Below are positions 9,088 through 57,068 of a stretch of 64,000 nucleotides of DNA, piece by piece (the first letter of the stretch is position 1; each line of letters begins with the position of its first letter). The stretch is from NCBI GenBank assembly GCA_026392515.1, contig JAPLBY010000011.1, positions 1 through 64,000 of the forward strand. Reading direction: 5' to 3'. Source of the stretch: Actinomycetota bacterium (GTDB lineage: Bacteria; Actinomycetota; Actinomycetes; S36-B12; UBA5976). The position numbers were made by a program, and so were the translations under genes. The notes below the pieces were generated by a model. That model saw only the letters and a list, made by a program, of their open reading frames with translations, did no database searches and was not told the DNA's origin.

Positions 9088-9128
9088 GTTGAATTTCGAT
9101 TTAACTATACGTTAAATCGAAATTCAAC
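9088..9128. terminator. Bidirectional hairpin between phosphoesterase gene and ychF
   Basis: Perfect 18-bp inverted repeat with a 5-nt loop: left arm GTTGAATTTCGATTTAAC at 9088-9105, right arm at 9111-9128. The right arm is the coding sequence of the final residues VEFRFN of ychF; the left arm is an inverted copy of it lying past the stop codon. A small palindrome CTGAAATTCAG at 9065-9075 precedes it. It can terminate transcription from both sides. Confidence 0.7.
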
Positions 9129-10178
9129 AACATCCCCATCAGACATAACATACTCTTTGCCTTCCATGCGGACTTTGCCTTTGGACTTAGCTTCTGCCAC
9201 CGAACCCGCAGATACTAGATCTTCAAAAGCCACAATTTCGGCTTTAATAAATCCCTTTTGGAAATCAGTGTGAATTACTCCTGCAGCTTCTGGCGCGGTA
9301 GCTCCGACTGAAATTGTCCAGGCGCGAGATTCTTTTGGCCCAGCAGTTAAATAAGTTTGTAGCCCTAAGGTTTTAAATCCAACTCGAGACAAGATTGCAA
9401 TACCACTTTCCTGTTGCCCGACGGATTGCAAAAGTTCCAGCGCTTCGTCTTCAGGAAGCTCACCGAGTTCTGCTTCAAGTTTTGCATTCATGAAGACTGC
9501 TTCAACTGGGGCAACTAGCGCACTTAGCTCTTGCTTTAATGCATCGTCTGTTAACTCTTCTTCATCGAGATTAAATACGTACAAGAATGGCTTTGCAGTG
9601 AGCAGGAACAATTCGCGAATCGGTTCGTAATCAAGACCCGATTCAAAAATGGTCTTGCCTGAATTGAGAATTTCTACTGCCTTTTCTGCAGTAGCAAGTG
9701 ACTCTGCTTTCGACTTATCTAAGCGAGACTCTTTCAATAGACGTGGCATAGCTTTTTCCAGCGTCTGCATATCGGCCAAAATTAGTTCGGTATTAATGGT
9801 TTCAATGTCATCTTTGGGTGAGATCGCGCCATCGACGTGGACTACATCTGGATCTTTGAATGCTCGAATCACTTGGCAAATAGCTTCGGATTCGCGGATG
9901 TTTGCCAAGAACTTATTTCCTAGTCCTTCGCCTTCACTTGCGCCGCGAACAATTCCAGCAATATCTACGAAAGTCACTGTGGCTGGCAGAATGCGTTCTG
10001 AGCCGAAGATCTTCGCCAAAATTGGCAAGCGTGCATCTGGAACTTCAACTACGCCTGTGTTTGGTTCAATCGTGGCGAACGGATAATTAGCCGCCAGCAC
10101 ATTATTTTTCGTTAATGCATTAAAAAGAGTCGACTTTCCGACATTGGGTAATCCGACGATTCCGATAGTTAGGGCCAC
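9105..10178 (-). CDS. ychF: Ribosome-binding ATPase YchF (Obg family)
   Basis: 357-aa P-loop NTPase that binds the ribosome and prefers ATP. Motifs: Walker A GLPNVGKST at residues 8-16, VDIAGIVRGASEGEGLGNKFL, and in place of the GTP-specifying NKxD the YchF-type variant FNLDE; a C-terminal TGS domain (IHTDFQKGFIKAEIV) follows a helical insert. The start is a GTG at 10178 with TACGCT 8 nt upstream, slightly beyond the spacing seen at other leaderless starts in this window. Its last codons form one arm of an 18-bp hairpin. Confidence 0.96.
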   Translation of the reverse strand: MALTIGIVGLPNVGKSTLFNALTKNNVLAANYPFATIEPNTGVVEVPDARLPILAKIFGSERILPATVTFVDIAGIVRGASEGEGLGNKFLANIRESEAICQVIRAFKDPDVVHVDGAISPKDDIETINTELILADMQTLEKAMPRLLKESRLDKSKAESLATAEKAVEILNSGKTIFESGLDYEPIRELFLLTAKPFLYVFNLDEEELTDDALKQELSALVAPVEAVFMNAKLEAELGELPEDEALELLQSVGQQESGIAILSRVGFKTLGLQTYLTAGPKESRAWTISVGATAPEAAGVIHTDFQKGFIKAEIVAFEDLVSAGSVAEAKSKGKVRMEGKEYVMSDGDVVEFRFNV

Positions 10179-36647: not shown

Positions 36648-38225
36648 CTAGAAAATATCTGGTGGGTTGTAACGACCCCAGACCTCACGCAAAGCATCAG
36701 CAACTTCGCCGCCACTTGCCTTTGCAGCCAAGGCTTCCTTCATTGGATACATCACGTTCTCGGTTGACTCAGCAGCCCGCTTTAAGGAATCCAGGGCTCG
36801 TGTCACATCAGAGTTATTTCGAGAATCTCTAATGGCTTGCAGGCGAGCAACTTGCTGCTCCCCAATGGCTGGATCGACTCGAAGTGGTTCGTATTTTTCT
36901 TCAACATCAATTGCGAACTTATTAACGCCAACAACGGTTCGTTCGCCCTTGTCGATTTGTAAGGCATAGTCATAAGCGCTGGTTTCGATTTCGTTCTTCT
37001 GGAACCCGACTTCGATGGCCTTCGCTGCGCCACCAAATTCTTCAACTTTGCCCATCAGGCGCAAGATCTCAGCTTCTAACTCGTCCGTCATGGCTTCAAT
37101 CACATAAGAACCAGCAAACGGATCTACCGTTGCCGTCACATCAGTTTCGTAGGCCAAGACTTGCTGAGTGCGAAGTGCCAATCGTGCTGCCTTCTCAGTT
37201 GGCAATGCAATAGCTTCATCAAAAGAGTTGGTGTGAAGTGATTGAGTGCCACCCAGCACAGCGGCTAAACCTTGAATTGCCACGCGAACTAGATTCACTT
37301 CTGGTTGCTGCGCTGTTAGCTGTACGCCTGCAGTCTGGGTATGGAAGCGAAGCATCTGACTCTTTGGATTTGTTGCCTTGAATTCATCTTTCATAATGCG
37401 GGCCCAAATTCTTCGGGCCGCACGGAACTTGGCGATCTCTTCCAAAATTGTGGTTCGCGAGACAAAGAAGAAAGCTAAACGTGGTGCAAAGTCATCGACA
37501 TTCATTCCGGCCTTAATTGCAGCTCGGACATATTCGATGCCGTTGGAAAGTGTGAAAGCGATTTCTTGCGCTGGCGTAGCCCCGGCTTCGCCCATGTGGT
37601 AACCCGAAATAGAGATTGTGTTCCAGTGTGGGATTTCTTTTGCACAGTAATCAAAAATGTCTGTAGTCAATCGTAATGATGCAGCTGGTGGATAGATATA
37701 CGTGCCGCGGGAAATGTATTCCTTAAGTACGTCATTCTGAATAGTGCCATTTAATTCGGTTCCAGGAATACCTTCACCTTCGGCAACCAACTGGTACATC
37801 AATAACAGTGTTGATGCTGGTGAGTTGATTGTCATCGAAGTTGAAACTTGGTCTAACGGAATCCGATCAAACAAAATCTTCATATCTTCGACGGTGTCAA
37901 TAGCCACACCGACTTTGCCAACTTCGCCTTGAGCTAGTTGGTGATCTGAGTCGTAACCCATTTGAGTAGGTAAGTCGAAGGCAACACTGAGGCCAGTTGT
38001 TCCAGCTGCTAACAGTTGGTGATATCGCTCATTAGATTCGGCAGCCGTTCCAAAGCCTGCGTATTGACGCATAGTCCAAGGACGTCCGGTGTACATGCTT
38101 GAATAAACACCGCGAGTGTATGGAAATTCGCCTGGCTCGCCTAGTTCAACGGATGGATCCCAGCCATCGCGTGATGCCGGCCCATAGACCGGATCAATAG
38201 GTAGCCCTGACTGTGTAATCCCCAT
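36648..38225 (-). CDS. Methylmalonyl-CoA mutase-type large subunit (B12 domain encoded separately)
   Basis: 525-aa substrate-binding TIM-barrel subunit of the B12-dependent acyl-CoA mutase family. Blocks: [15 protein letters not shown] (Tyr at the site of the MCM substrate Tyr), [44 protein letters not shown] (split; Arg retained), [34 protein letters not shown]. It has no cobalamin-binding domain; the matching 134-aa domain protein is at 55492-55896. The retained Tyr/Arg favour methylmalonyl-CoA, but related two-part enzymes rearrange hydroxyisobutyryl- or ethylmalonyl-CoA, so specificity is inferred. ATG at 38225 with a leaderless -10 that overlaps the sdhB stop codon. Confidence 0.92.
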
Positions 38226-38231
38226 AGGTAG

Positions 38232-38237
38232 AGGTTA
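38232..38237 (-). promoter_or_regulatory. -10 hexamer for leaderless mutase large-subunit gene, overlapping sdhB stop
   Basis: TAACCT, 6 nt before the ATG at 38225; its TAA is the sdhB stop codon at 38235-38237. Confidence 0.5.
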
Positions 38238-38990
38238 GTCCGCTTTACGGCGTCCGATTGTGCGTCCTAGCCAAACCAGCGGATCATACTTCTCATCAAC
38301 TACGCGTTCCTTCATTGGAATGATCGCATTGTCCGTGATCTTGATGTGTTCTGGGCAAACTGCGGTGCAGCACTTGGTGATGTTACACATACCAAGGCCA
38401 TGCTCTTCTTGAGCTTCCCGCTTACGATCGCGCGTATCCAATGGGTGCATGTCTAGTTCTGCAAGACGAATGAAGAAACGAGGACCAGCAAAAGCTTCCT
38501 TGTTTTCTTCGTGGTCACGAATAACGTGGCAGGTGTCCTGACATAAGAAGCACTCAATGCACTTGCGGAACTCTTGGCTACGCTGTACATCGATTTGTTC
38601 CATGCGGTACTCGCCTGGCTTTAAGTTGTCAGGCCCCTTGAATGCTGGAATCTCGCGAGCCTTCTTGTAGTTGAAGGAAACATCTGCAACCAGATCCTTG
38701 ATAACTGGGAAGGCACGAAGTGGGGTTACTGTAATTTCTTCGTCTTCGGCAAAAGTATTCATGCGAGTCATGCACATAAGACTTGGCTTGCCATTGATTT
38801 CAGCACTACAAGACCCACACTTACCAGCCTTGCAGTTCCAACGAACCGCTAGATCTGGTGCTTCAGTCGCCTGGAGACGATGAATTACGTCGAGTACAAC
38901 TTCGCCTTCGCCAACTTCAACCTTGTGTTCTTCAAGTTGACCGGCTTCGCTGTTACCGCGCCAGATTCGCATCGATGCTAAGTAACCCAT
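38235..38990 (-). CDS. sdhB: Succinate dehydrogenase iron-sulfur subunit
   Basis: 251-aa electron-transfer subunit. N-terminal [2Fe-2S] ferredoxin domain: WNCKAGKCGSCSAEI...SLMC; C-terminal clusters CIECFLCQDTCHV and CNITKCCTAVCPEHI, giving the [4Fe-4S] and [3Fe-4S] sets. It resembles mycobacterial Sdh1 (Rv0247c-type). Start and sdhA stop overlap as TAATG, so translation is coupled. It is the last gene of sdhCAB. Confidence 0.95.
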   Translation of the reverse strand: MGYLASMRIWRGNSEAGQLEEHKVEVGEGEVVLDVIHRLQATEAPDLAVRWNCKAGKCGSCSAEINGKPSLMCMTRMNTFAEDEEITVTPLRAFPVIKDLVADVSFNYKKAREIPAFKGPDNLKPGEYRMEQIDVQRSQEFRKCIECFLCQDTCHVIRDHEENKEAFAGPRFFIRLAELDMHPLDTRDRKREAQEEHGLGMCNITKCCTAVCPEHIKITDNAIIPMKERVVDEKYDPLVWLGRTIGRRKAD

Positions 38991-53395: not shown

Positions 53396-54268
53396 TTAAC
53401 GACTGGCTAGGACTTCTCGAACAAGTCTGGCTGCTTCACTTGGAGTTTTTCCAACGCGAACGCCTACTGCTTCAAGTGCATCTTTCTTTGCTGCCGCAGT
53501 TCCAGATGAACCAGAAACAATTGCACCAGCGTGACCCATGGTTTTGCCTTCAGGTGCGGTAAAGCCAGCGACATATCCAATTACTGGCTTTGTTACGTTG
53601 TCCTTAATGAATGCAGCTGCGCGCTCTTCTGCGTCTCCACCGATTTCACCGATCATCACGATGACTTCCGTTTCAGGGTCAGCTTCGAAAGCTGCAAGGC
53701 AATCGATATGTGTGGTTCCAATAATTGGATCGCCACCAATACCAACGCAACTTGAGAATCCAAGATCTCTTAACTCGAACATCATTTGGTAAGTCAGAGT
53801 TCCCGACTTACTAACTAGGCCAATGCGTCCCTTTTTGGTTATGTCTCCTGGAATGATTCCGGCATTGGAAAGTCCTGGACTAATCAAGCCTGGGCAGTTT
53901 GGCCCAACTAGACGAGTCTTACCGGAGTTTTCGGCGTACTGGAAAAATGCAGCAGTGTCGTGAATTGGAATGCCTTCGGTAATTACTACGCATAGTGGAA
54001 TAGCCGCATCTACTGCTTCTATTACTGCAGCCTTTGCAAACTTTGGTGGCACGAAAACAACTGACACATTTGCTCCAGTTGCGGCCATTGCTTCACCCAC
54101 GTTGTTAAAAACTGGAATGCCATCAACTTCTTGGCCACCTTTGCCTGGGGTTACGCCCGCAACAACATTGGTACCGCTGGCCACCATGCGACGGGTGTGC
54201 TTAGTTCCTTCCGAACCAGTCATTCCCTGAACTAAAACTTTGCTATCTGCATTAAGAAAAATTGCCAT
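53396..54268 (-). CDS. sucD: Succinyl-CoA synthetase alpha subunit
   Basis: 290-aa subunit carrying the CoA site and the phospho-histidine. [22 protein letters not shown] (split), [38 protein letters not shown] and the active His in [12 protein letters not shown]. Together with SucC it converts succinyl-CoA to succinate with NTP formation. AGGA 6 nt before the ATG is its Shine-Dalgarno; it starts 8 nt after the sucC stop. Confidence 0.97.
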
Positions 54269-54276
54269 CAGAAGTC

Positions 54277-55452
54277 CTACTTACCTGCAGCTAGTTGGGC
54301 AACGCGACGAGCGGCATCATCCATGGTTTCAACACGTTCAATTAATGCAATTCCTGATTCATCAAGAATTCGACGACCTTCGACTGCGTTGTTGCCATCA
54401 ATTCGGCAAACAATTGGTTTGGTAATTGGTTCGCCACGTTCGGCAAGCATTCCTACGGCCTGCACAATTCCGTTAGCAACTGCATCGCAAGCTGTAATTC
54501 CACCGAAGACGTTTACAAAAACGGCCTTTACTTCTGGATCACCTAAAACGATGTCCAAACCATTAGCCATAACTTGAGCGCTAGCGCCACCACCAATGTC
54601 AAGGAAGTTTGCTGGCTTAATGCCACCAAACTCTTCGCCTGCATAAGCAACTACATCCAAGGTGGACATAACAAGTCCGGCACCGTTGCCGATAATTCCG
54701 ACTTCGCCTTGAAGTTTTACGTAGTTCAAATCAAATTCTTTGGCGCGCAATTCAATTGGATCAGTTTGTGCATTATCAATAAGTGCAAGGTGTGATTCAT
54801 GACGGTATTGCGCGTTGTCATCTAGCGAAACTTTGCCATCTAGGGCAAGTACTCGGCCATCAGTGATTCTTGCAAGTGGGTTTACTTCAACAAGAGTTGC
54901 ATCTTCTTCAACTAAGACCTTCCAAAGACTCTGCAGCATTTCAATAACCTGATCCCGAACTTCGGCTGGGAACTTTGCCGCATCTGCAATTTCAGTTGCT
55001 TTCTCAAGTGTGCAACCAACTTGTGCATCAACCCGAATCATTGCTAACGCTTCAGGGTTGTTTACAGCAACCTCTTCGATCTCGACGCCGCCTTCAACGC
55101 TGGCCATCGCAAGGAATGTGCGATTGGTGCGATCAAGCAAAAATGAAACGTAATACTCTTCGGCAATGTCTGCAGCTTCAGCAACCAAAACTTTATGGAC
55201 AATGTGTCCCTTGATATCCAATCCAAGAATGTCTTGGGCGCGATCTTTGGCATCACTTGCATTATCAGCAAGCTTTACTCCACCTGCCTTACCACGGCCA
55301 CCGGTCTTGACTTGCGCCTTAACAACAACTGTTGTTCCAATTTCAGTCGCAACGGCATGCGCTTCTTCAGGTGTGAAGCAAACTTTGCCTGGCACTACGG
55401 CTACGCCATGCTTGGCGAATAATTCTTTAGCTTGGTATTCGTATAGATCCAC
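54277..55452 (-). CDS. sucC: Succinyl-CoA synthetase beta subunit
   Basis: 391-aa ATP-grasp subunit: [17 protein letters not shown] start, [20 protein letters not shown] (split), [24 protein letters not shown] (split) and the C-terminal [17 protein letters not shown]. Typical length. GTG start at 55452 without a clear Shine-Dalgarno. The B12-binding mutase subunit lies just upstream (ends 55492), so an enzyme making succinyl-CoA and the enzyme using it appear to share a transcript. Confidence 0.97.
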
Positions 55453-55491: not shown

Positions 55492-55896
55492 TTAGCGAAC
55501 GCTTGCGACCCCTACGTTGGCGCGAACCCATTCGACAACATCGCCAATAGGAGTGCCTGGTGTGAACACATGTGCAACACCAGAATCCTGTAACTGAGTT
55601 ACGTCATCAGTTGGAATTACACCGCCGCCAAACACCACAATGTCAGAAGCACCCTTTGCTGCCAGCAGTTCGATAACTGCGGGGAACAGAGTTAAGTGTG
55701 CGCCAGAAAGAATCGACATGCCAATGGCGTCAGCATCTTCTTGGATCGCAGTTTGAACTATCTGTTCTGGAGTTTGGTGAAGACCAGTGTAAATGACTTC
55801 GAACCCAGCATCACGAAGTGCGCGGGCAATAACCTTGGCGCCACGATCATGGCCATCTAAGCCGGGCTTAGCAATGACGATGCGAATTGGGTTCAT
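55492..55896 (-). CDS. Cobalamin-binding subunit of methylmalonyl-CoA-type mutase
   Basis: 134-aa stand-alone B12-binding domain: the DxHxxG motif with the cobalt-ligating His in [13 protein letters not shown], then [12 protein letters not shown] and [11 protein letters not shown], as in the small subunits of archaeal-type methylmalonyl-CoA mutase and HcmB. Partner is the large subunit at 36648-38225, 17 kb away. It heads the sucC-sucD unit. AAGGA abuts the ATG, and TATGAA 6 nt before the ATG resembles the leaderless -10 pattern but lacks the final T. A perfect palindrome lies just upstream. Confidence 0.93.
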
Positions 55897-55910
55897 TCCT
55901 TATTCATACA

Positions 55911-55938
55911 GGCAAATTGCGGGTACTCGCAATTTGCC
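55911..55938. promoter_or_regulatory. Perfect palindrome upstream of the B12-binding mutase subunit, candidate operator
   Basis: GGCAAATTGCG at 55911-55921 and CGCAATTTGCC at 55928-55938, 11-bp arms with a 6-nt centre, beginning 15 nt before the ATG at 55896. If the transcript starts at or near the ATG, the palindrome covers the -15 to -42 region, as for a repressor site (TetR- or GntR-type spacing). It could instead be a leader hairpin. Confidence 0.5.
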
Positions 55939-56090
55939 ATGGAATAGTCAGATATCTTCGGAAATTCGCGGATATCCCCTGGTTTCAAGGGTGGGTTATG
56001 TCACTTTCGCCTCTAACACCACATTTTCATTTCCCAAAGGCCCAGAAGTCAGGTAGAAAAGACTTATAACTTAAGCATTTTTGCCTTCGA

Positions 56091-56102: not shown

Positions 56103-57068
56103 ATGAGCACAGCACCACGCGGTCGTCATCGCGCTGCCCGCCATGCTGCCCCGAAGAAGAAGGTAGTTTCTGGCAAGCACGTAGGTGCACTCGTTGGCCT
56201 TGCGGGCATGAGCTCTGTAGTTGCGACCTCTGGATCCACTGTTGCCGGTGTGGTTCAAGCAGGCGACACAAGTGTCATGGAGTATCCGGCGGCAACCGTC
56301 ACAGCTTCAGGTCAGCAAGACACTGTCGCTTCGATTCAGAACAGCACTTCGCGTGCGCAGGCTGCCAGCCGTTCCGAAGATCGCCAGACTCTTGCGGAAG
56401 CTGAAGTTGTCGCTGCCGCTGCGACCGTAGATGATCCAACTAGCGATCCAAATGCAGTCATTGATACCACTCCAACAGTTTCAAGTACCGAACGAAAGTC
56501 GTTGCAAGCACTTGCTGCAACAACCGATCAGCTAGATACCTTGGTTGCACAGGCCCAAGATCAAAAAAATCAACAAGCTCAAATTTTGCTAAGTGAACAG
56601 CAGGCTGCTGCTAATGCAAAAGCACAGGCTGAAGCCGAGCAACAGGCTGCTTTGATTGAAGCTGAAAGATTGCGTCAAATTGGTGTGATTGAAGTTCCGA
56701 TTCAATCGAACTACACCTTGAGCGCTCGTTACGGACAACGTGGCGGACTTTGGTCTCAAGGTTGGCACACTGGATTAGATTTCCGCGTCAAGAGTGGTAC
56801 GACTGTTGTTGCCGCAGCAAACGGAACTGTAATCGCATCTGGTTGGGGTGGCGCGTACGGCTATCGAATTGAAATTGATCACGGAAATGGCTACGTCACT
56901 ACTTACAACCATTTATCCAAAATTGAGATCACCGAGGGCAAAGTTGCTGCCGGACAAGAAATTGGTAAATCTGGATCTACTGGAAACACCACGGGACCAC
57001 ACTTGCACTTCGAAGTTACTAAAGATGGCGAATTCATGAACCCATCAGCTTGGCTTTGGGGTAAGTAA
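56103..57068 (+). CDS. M23 family peptidoglycan endopeptidase
   Basis: 321-aa envelope protein. A basic N-terminus (RGRHRAARHAAPKKK) precedes one hydrophobic segment at about 27-52 for export; a low-complexity Ala/Gln/Glu-rich helical region (about 130-195, coiled-coil-like) follows; the C-terminal LytM domain (about 215-315) has the zinc motifs HTGLDF and HLHFE, so it should be catalytically active. It would hydrolyse peptide cross-links during growth or division. Divergent from the mutase/suc unit, convergent with pcrA. Confidence 0.92.
   Translation: MSTAPRGRHRAARHAAPKKKVVSGKHVGALVGLAGMSSVVATSGSTVAGVVQAGDTSVMEYPAATVTASGQQDTVASIQNSTSRAQAASRSEDRQTLAEAEVVAAAATVDDPTSDPNAVIDTTPTVSSTERKSLQALAATTDQLDTLVAQAQDQKNQQAQILLSEQQAAANAKAQAEAEQQAALIEAERLRQIGVIEVPIQSNYTLSARYGQRGGLWSQGWHTGLDFRVKSGTTVVAAANGTVIASGWGGAYGYRIEIDHGNGYVTTYNHLSKIEITEGKVAAGQEIGKSGSTGNTTGPHLHFEVTKDGEFMNPSAWLWGK

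Follow-up and report, generated by a model that had tools for sequence, protein, structure and literature searches.

The locus and its genes

The window, by which we mean the whole 64,000-nucleotide stretch of DNA that was analysed, contains a 28-bp dyad whose end lies 14 nt from the ATG (55896) of the gene for the B12-binding (small) subunit of methylmalonyl-CoA mutase; sucC and sucD are next downstream (Table 1). The mutase large subunit, which is presumed to be the partner of this small subunit, is encoded about 17 kb from the dyad locus. Given that its gene follows 9 nt behind sdhB (window 36648-38990), the two mutase subunits belong to two different TCA-cycle gene clusters.

Table 1 Positions of the dyad, the promoter-like boxes and the genes discussed in the text
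Feature	Position in window	Strand	Remarks
28-bp dyad (operator candidate)	55911..55938	-	Conserved core GGCAAATT-N12-AATTTGCC; kept in 9/10 close orthologs
-35-like TTGCGA	55927..55932	-	Inside left arm, 18 nt before -10-like box; weak match, our own assignment
-10-like TATGAA	55903..55908	-	-12 to -7 of start codon; other carriers TATTAA or TATGAA
Methylmalonyl-CoA mutase B12-binding (small) subunit, 134 aa	55492..55896	-	TIGR00640, 1.5e-53
sucC, succinate-CoA ligase beta	54277..55452	-	NF001913, above cut-off
sucD, succinate-CoA ligase alpha	53396..54268	-	NF004230, above cut-off
Methylmalonyl-CoA mutase large subunit	36648..38225	-	TIGR00641
Divergent M23 peptidase gene	56103..57068	+	Has a leaderless-type promoter of its own (TAGGGT, 6 nt from ATG)

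On the opposite side, 165 bp separate the dyad from the start of the M23 peptidase gene. A TGACATAAC block is present between the two divergent genes (minus strand, window 55995-56003) and recurs in many orthologs of the genus, some of them without the palindrome. This block may be part of the promoter of the M23 peptidase gene, and MtrA as its factor is a guess.

Elsewhere in the window (9088-9128), two genes end convergently, and a perfect 18-bp inverted repeat with a 5-nt loop is found there, overlapping the last base of one of them (9105-10178). It is perhaps a two-way terminator.

Symmetry of the dyad

As read from the sequence, positions 55911-55938 are GGCAAATTGCGGGTACTCGCAATTTGCC, or GGCAAATTGCGAGTACCCGCAATTTGCC on the minus strand. 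The perfect 11-bp arms and 6-nt centre that had been reported in a preliminary description of this DNA are borne out, and 13 of the 14 symmetric pairs are formed when the centre is counted. The symmetry exceeds chance: when no more than one broken pair is allowed, the window has a single 28-bp dyad, and none of 40 dinucleotide-shuffled windows has any. Perfect 11-bp arms with spacers of 0-12 give six register hits in the window, versus a mean of 0.25 per shuffled window; other repeats, for example that at 9088-9128, are among the six. At up to three mismatches, the dyad has one match in the window and none in 100 shuffles, and the site is unique in its own genome (1.69 Mb).

Probable promoter and start of the transcript

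A scan with the sigma-70 consensus detected no promoter at the dyad locus. The general promoter pattern was read from the 31 of the window's 55 genes that have free upstream space. The pattern TANNNT is found at -12 in eight of them, at -13 in three and at -23 in four, and in zero or one gene at any other position; a Shine-Dalgarno-like motif is present in five. TA at -12 occurs in ten of the 31, including the mutase small-subunit gene, whose -10-like box ends with A at -7, not T. The TANNNT pattern at -12 is also found in hisN orthologs.

Given the -10-like box at -12, a placement usual in this genome, and the fact that the mutase small-subunit gene has no usable Shine-Dalgarno sequence, its pattern suggests a leaderless mRNA whose transcript begins at the start codon. 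With such a start, the dyad would be upstream of the mRNA, over the -35 region and the spacer. The -35-like box reads TTGCGG, TTGCGA or TTGGAA in relatives that carry the dyad, and its spacing to the -10-like box is 18 nt (17 in G001 and G015). The placing of the palindrome over the probable promoter of sucCD and the small-subunit gene, also put forward in the preliminary description, is supported by the -10-like box and the leaderless pattern, although on sequence only.

Conservation among relatives

The small subunit is matched in 16 of 23 genomes of the genus, and ten of these matches, including the window's own, are close orthologs (at least 93% identity). Absence of conservation had been named as a finding that would speak against a repressor site at the palindrome. 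We found the dyad in nine of the ten close orthologs (G000, G001, G003, G005, G009, G010, G013, G015 and G022), always 13-14 nt from the start codon. The tenth, G002, has at most a degenerate remnant. By eye, no dyad is present in six orthologs of 62-73% identity, nor is there such a dyad upstream of eight orthologs from other genera of the family. The exact arms occur in 7 of 166 searched genomes of the order, always at the gene for the B12-binding subunit and at no other site.

The perfect arms extend over at least 11 bp in G000, G003 and G013 and over 10 bp in G001; in the remaining five carriers, those of the proximal copies measure 6-8 bp. Those of the G009 and G015 proximal copies are only 6 bp long, which is matched by 14 of 300 shuffles in each case. 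Compared with 6-12 bp in carriers, perfect arms are 3-5 bp in G002 and in five of the six distant orthologs (G014 was left out).

When the nine carriers are anchored at the start codon, with G002 excluded, the outer arms reach identities of 0.92 (left) and 0.94 (right), and the 12-bp centre 0.69. Identity is 0.93 at -14 to -7, 0.80 at -6 to -1 and 0.49-0.53 further upstream. The high values in the outer arms and at -14 to -7 define the constrained element as GGCAAATT-N12-AATTTGCC plus a TGTATNAAT-like box, and sequence conservation across relatives falls chiefly on the 8 outer bp of either arm. In G001 and in the distal copy of G015, both arms are altered (GCAAAATT/AATTTTGC) and the symmetry is retained. 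The alignment of copies has 13 of 15 rows; it omits the distal copy of G010, which has a broken right arm, and a G009 copy identical to another, a choice that favours symmetry.

A hisN tree groups G002 with G000, G003, G007 and G021 (five genomes, support 92/92). Its position among carriers suggests that G002 lost the dyad, although this is a single-gene tree with open forks, and a different course of gains and losses is conceivable. Beyond the small-subunit gene, we found mdh, purH and sucC in G002, and did not find sdhA, sdhB or the mutase large subunit. Loss of the mutase was considered as the cause of the dyad's loss and rejected: sdhB is missing along with the large subunit, so an assembly gap explains the result equally well. 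Separately, the sdhB match of G005 (G005:C80:3992-4691) is in two pieces in different frames, reflecting a frameshift or an assembly error.

No phage record matches window 55860-55990. A related pattern is present in five viral contigs. A literature search confined to open-access papers recognised no publication on the dyad site.

Tandem copies

Four carriers have more than one copy of the dyad, at distances of 40-42 bp. G009 has four copies, 41 bp apart, and the others have two: 41 bp apart in G003, 42 bp in G010 (by hand count) and 40 bp in G015. The upstream region of G001 is masked, and its copy count is therefore a minimum. Upstream copies in G009 and G010 are followed by -10-like stretches (TGTATTAAT, TGTACTGAT and TGTATGAAT). 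This stretch is degenerate after the upstream copy in G003 (TGCATGGAT), and in the G015 distal copy the arms are still perfect and the -10-like box is gone.

Search for further targets and a regulator

We scanned the 23 genus genomes for GGCAAATT-N12-AATTTGCC with up to two mismatches. Matches with zero or one mismatch occur only at the small-subunit gene or before hisN (G000, G003 and G007). The hisN site is a near-palindrome (G000:C22:76073-76100, L130) located 14 nt before the gene, likewise in G003 and G007. It is missing from the remaining hisN orthologs (21 in all), and probably reflects chance. Four sites with two mismatches were read, three in G000 and one in G009, and all are in coding sequence.

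A covariance model of 13 copies was also applied; each genome gave roughly 900 to 1860 candidates, of which 150 were scored. Among the matches listed, E-values below 0.007 occur only at the small-subunit gene. Six of seven other matches that were read are within open reading frames of at least 100 aa (for L118 and L229 as judged from their positions). Among those listed, the best match at another locus than the small-subunit gene, with an E-value of 0.008, is G010:C32:14657-14707 (L242), where GGGCAAATT and CAATTTGCCC arms are about 30 nt apart; we saw no open frame of at least 110 aa there. The last of the seven, a GCAAATTGCC/GCAATTTGCC pair, is found just before an Lrp/AsnC-like gene (G008:C44:15297-15347, L232; E-value 0.44).

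Within the candidates scored and the sites read, neither scan yielded a second conserved target in the genus. The wider regulon of propionate or fatty-acid genes that had been envisaged is therefore not supported, and proteins of the ScfR family, which run such a pathway elsewhere, were not found. Specifically, ScfR (PF09856) has no match in the 23 genus genomes, ten of which are at least 90% complete; a control search detected the family in 2 of 14 known genomes. Reading positions 55911-55938 revealed no TTTGC(A/G)AA box of the PrpR/RamB type.

The preliminary description had also suggested looking for half-sites together with a TetR or GntR regulator, and this did not lead to a candidate: judged by family presence, no such gene was seen to track the dyad site across the genus. 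Genes of both families are present in genomes with the dyad as well as in genomes lacking it. We found no TetR gene in the carrier G003, whose genome is 65% complete, and one above cut-off in G015, of a type that is also in G000 and G010.

A protein operator as the probable function

We consider that the palindrome is probably a protein operator for a putative dimeric regulator, itself probably a repressor, at the putatively leaderless promoter of this operon alone. The dyad would act as double-stranded DNA and be recognized by a dimeric or dimer-of-dimers transcription regulator. It would span -42 to -15 of the promoter, with the transcript starting at or next to the small-subunit start codon. 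Protein bound over the -35 region and spacer would block RNA polymerase, leading to less mutase subunit and sucCD. Release by a signal, perhaps a CoA ester of the route from propionyl-CoA to succinyl-CoA, would turn the operon on; the propionate or fatty-acid signal of the preliminary description is conjectural. It is the position of the dyad alone that leads us to favor repression over activation.

In four relatives, the putative operator, partly together with promoter boxes, is repeated to 2-4 copies. Because 40-42 bp is approximately four helix turns, extra dimers could bind the same face of the DNA, possibly in a cooperative manner. The candidate operator is ordinary in kind, and the tandem growth of its unit is the unusual feature.

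The main rival of the operator is a leader hairpin, which was already raised in the preliminary description. Transcription would then start upstream, and the palindrome would fold in the mRNA and either hide the ribosome site or control decay. We folded 12 of the 15 copies singly (the G003 distal copy, the most distal G009 copy and one identical G009 copy were omitted), and 11 of the 12 form a hairpin, which in several of them has one bulged base. For the G000 stretch, the folding energy is -19.3 kcal/mol (z -4.4), and the fold also includes pairing of AUUCC with GGAAU at the start codon. Values of z are -2.4 or lower in 9 of the 12 copies, both proximal and distal, and that of the central G009 copy is -2.7. 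Since most copies fold as RNA, symmetry alone cannot separate DNA from RNA.

Two copies fit an RNA poorly. The G015 proximal copy, which is the one that an mRNA would carry, folds weakly (z -1.4, equalled in 23 of 200 shuffles), and the G010 distal copy does not fold (z +0.6). With bulges disallowed, inner pairs are broken in 9, 8 and 3 of the 13 aligned copies, where three rows (from G001 and G015) are out of register; however, the hairpins of G005, G009, G010, G013 and G022 retain inner pairs with one bulged base. Unpaired inner stem positions do not decide against RNA, given that several copies form hairpins with one bulge. Covariation of the arms, which the preliminary description had proposed as a check for an RNA stem, is weak: three pairs are changed on both sides, versus a shuffled mean of 1.7. 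Between 55400 and 56300, Rfam has no match with an E-value of 1 or less.

The main argument for DNA is the leaderless-type promoter, whose -10 box is located between the hairpin and the start codon of a gene without a usable Shine-Dalgarno sequence. For this reason the leader hairpin is less likely than an operator. Given that most copies do fold, we regard it as unlikely but still the alternative to be taken most seriously.

A regulator bound to the dyad and its upstream copies might instead recruit or remodel RNA polymerase. Upstream extra copies at helix-phased spacing would suit such an activator, as would the weak promoter boxes. However, the proximal dyad, with its centre near -28.5, lies on the -35 region and spacer rather than upstream, and we judge an activator site to be quite improbable. 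A selfish or slippage-prone repeat with no regulatory role, spread by tandem duplication, could account for the tandem 41-bp units in G003 and G009, but is very improbable, as exact-arm sites occur only at this gene in the genomes searched, single copies hold a fixed distance and the G015 distal copy diverged yet stayed symmetric.

Returning to the probable operator, it most likely serves a single operon, within one clade of the genus. A more specific proposal, which we offer tentatively and with some doubt, is that it constitutes a dedicated one-operon switch through which methylmalonyl-CoA carbon is admitted to the TCA cycle, with a regulator outside ScfR and with one to four tandem copies (40-42 bp apart, helix-phased) that vary between species and tune expression. 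In these small-genome actinobacteria, where the known ScfR regulators were not found, an operator here would pinpoint, in a testable way, where the flow of propionyl-CoA carbon into the TCA cycle is controlled. The relatives would also provide a natural series of promoters with one, two and four operator copies.

Comparison with known systems

The general kind closest to the dyad is the operator of one-component bacterial repressors, for instance that of QacR, to which two dimers bind. According to the accessible part of PMC6018408, the operator of this TetR-family protein is 28 bp long with a 6-base centre, and the window copy is likewise 28 bp with a 6-nt centre. By contrast, perfect arms in most other carriers are 6-8 bp, and no TetR gene could be linked to the dyad.

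ScfR proteins run the propionyl-CoA/methylmalonyl-CoA pathway in Rhodobacter, as described in the available portion of PMC10370305, and the box of PrpR/RamB is TTTGC(A/G)AA in the corresponding portion of PMC6765138. As far as these excerpts describe the family (PccR, PrpR and RamB), our locus differs from it both in the genus genomes, where the family was not found, and in the dyad, from which the PrpR/RamB box is absent.

In Mycobacterium tuberculosis, the text available from PMC3898074 describes leaderless genes without a Shine-Dalgarno sequence, in which TANNNT is located 7-12 bp before a transcript start that is also the start codon. Within the scope of that text, the mutase small-subunit gene resembles these leaderless promoters in the position of its box and in having no usable Shine-Dalgarno sequence, and differs in that its box ends with A instead of T.
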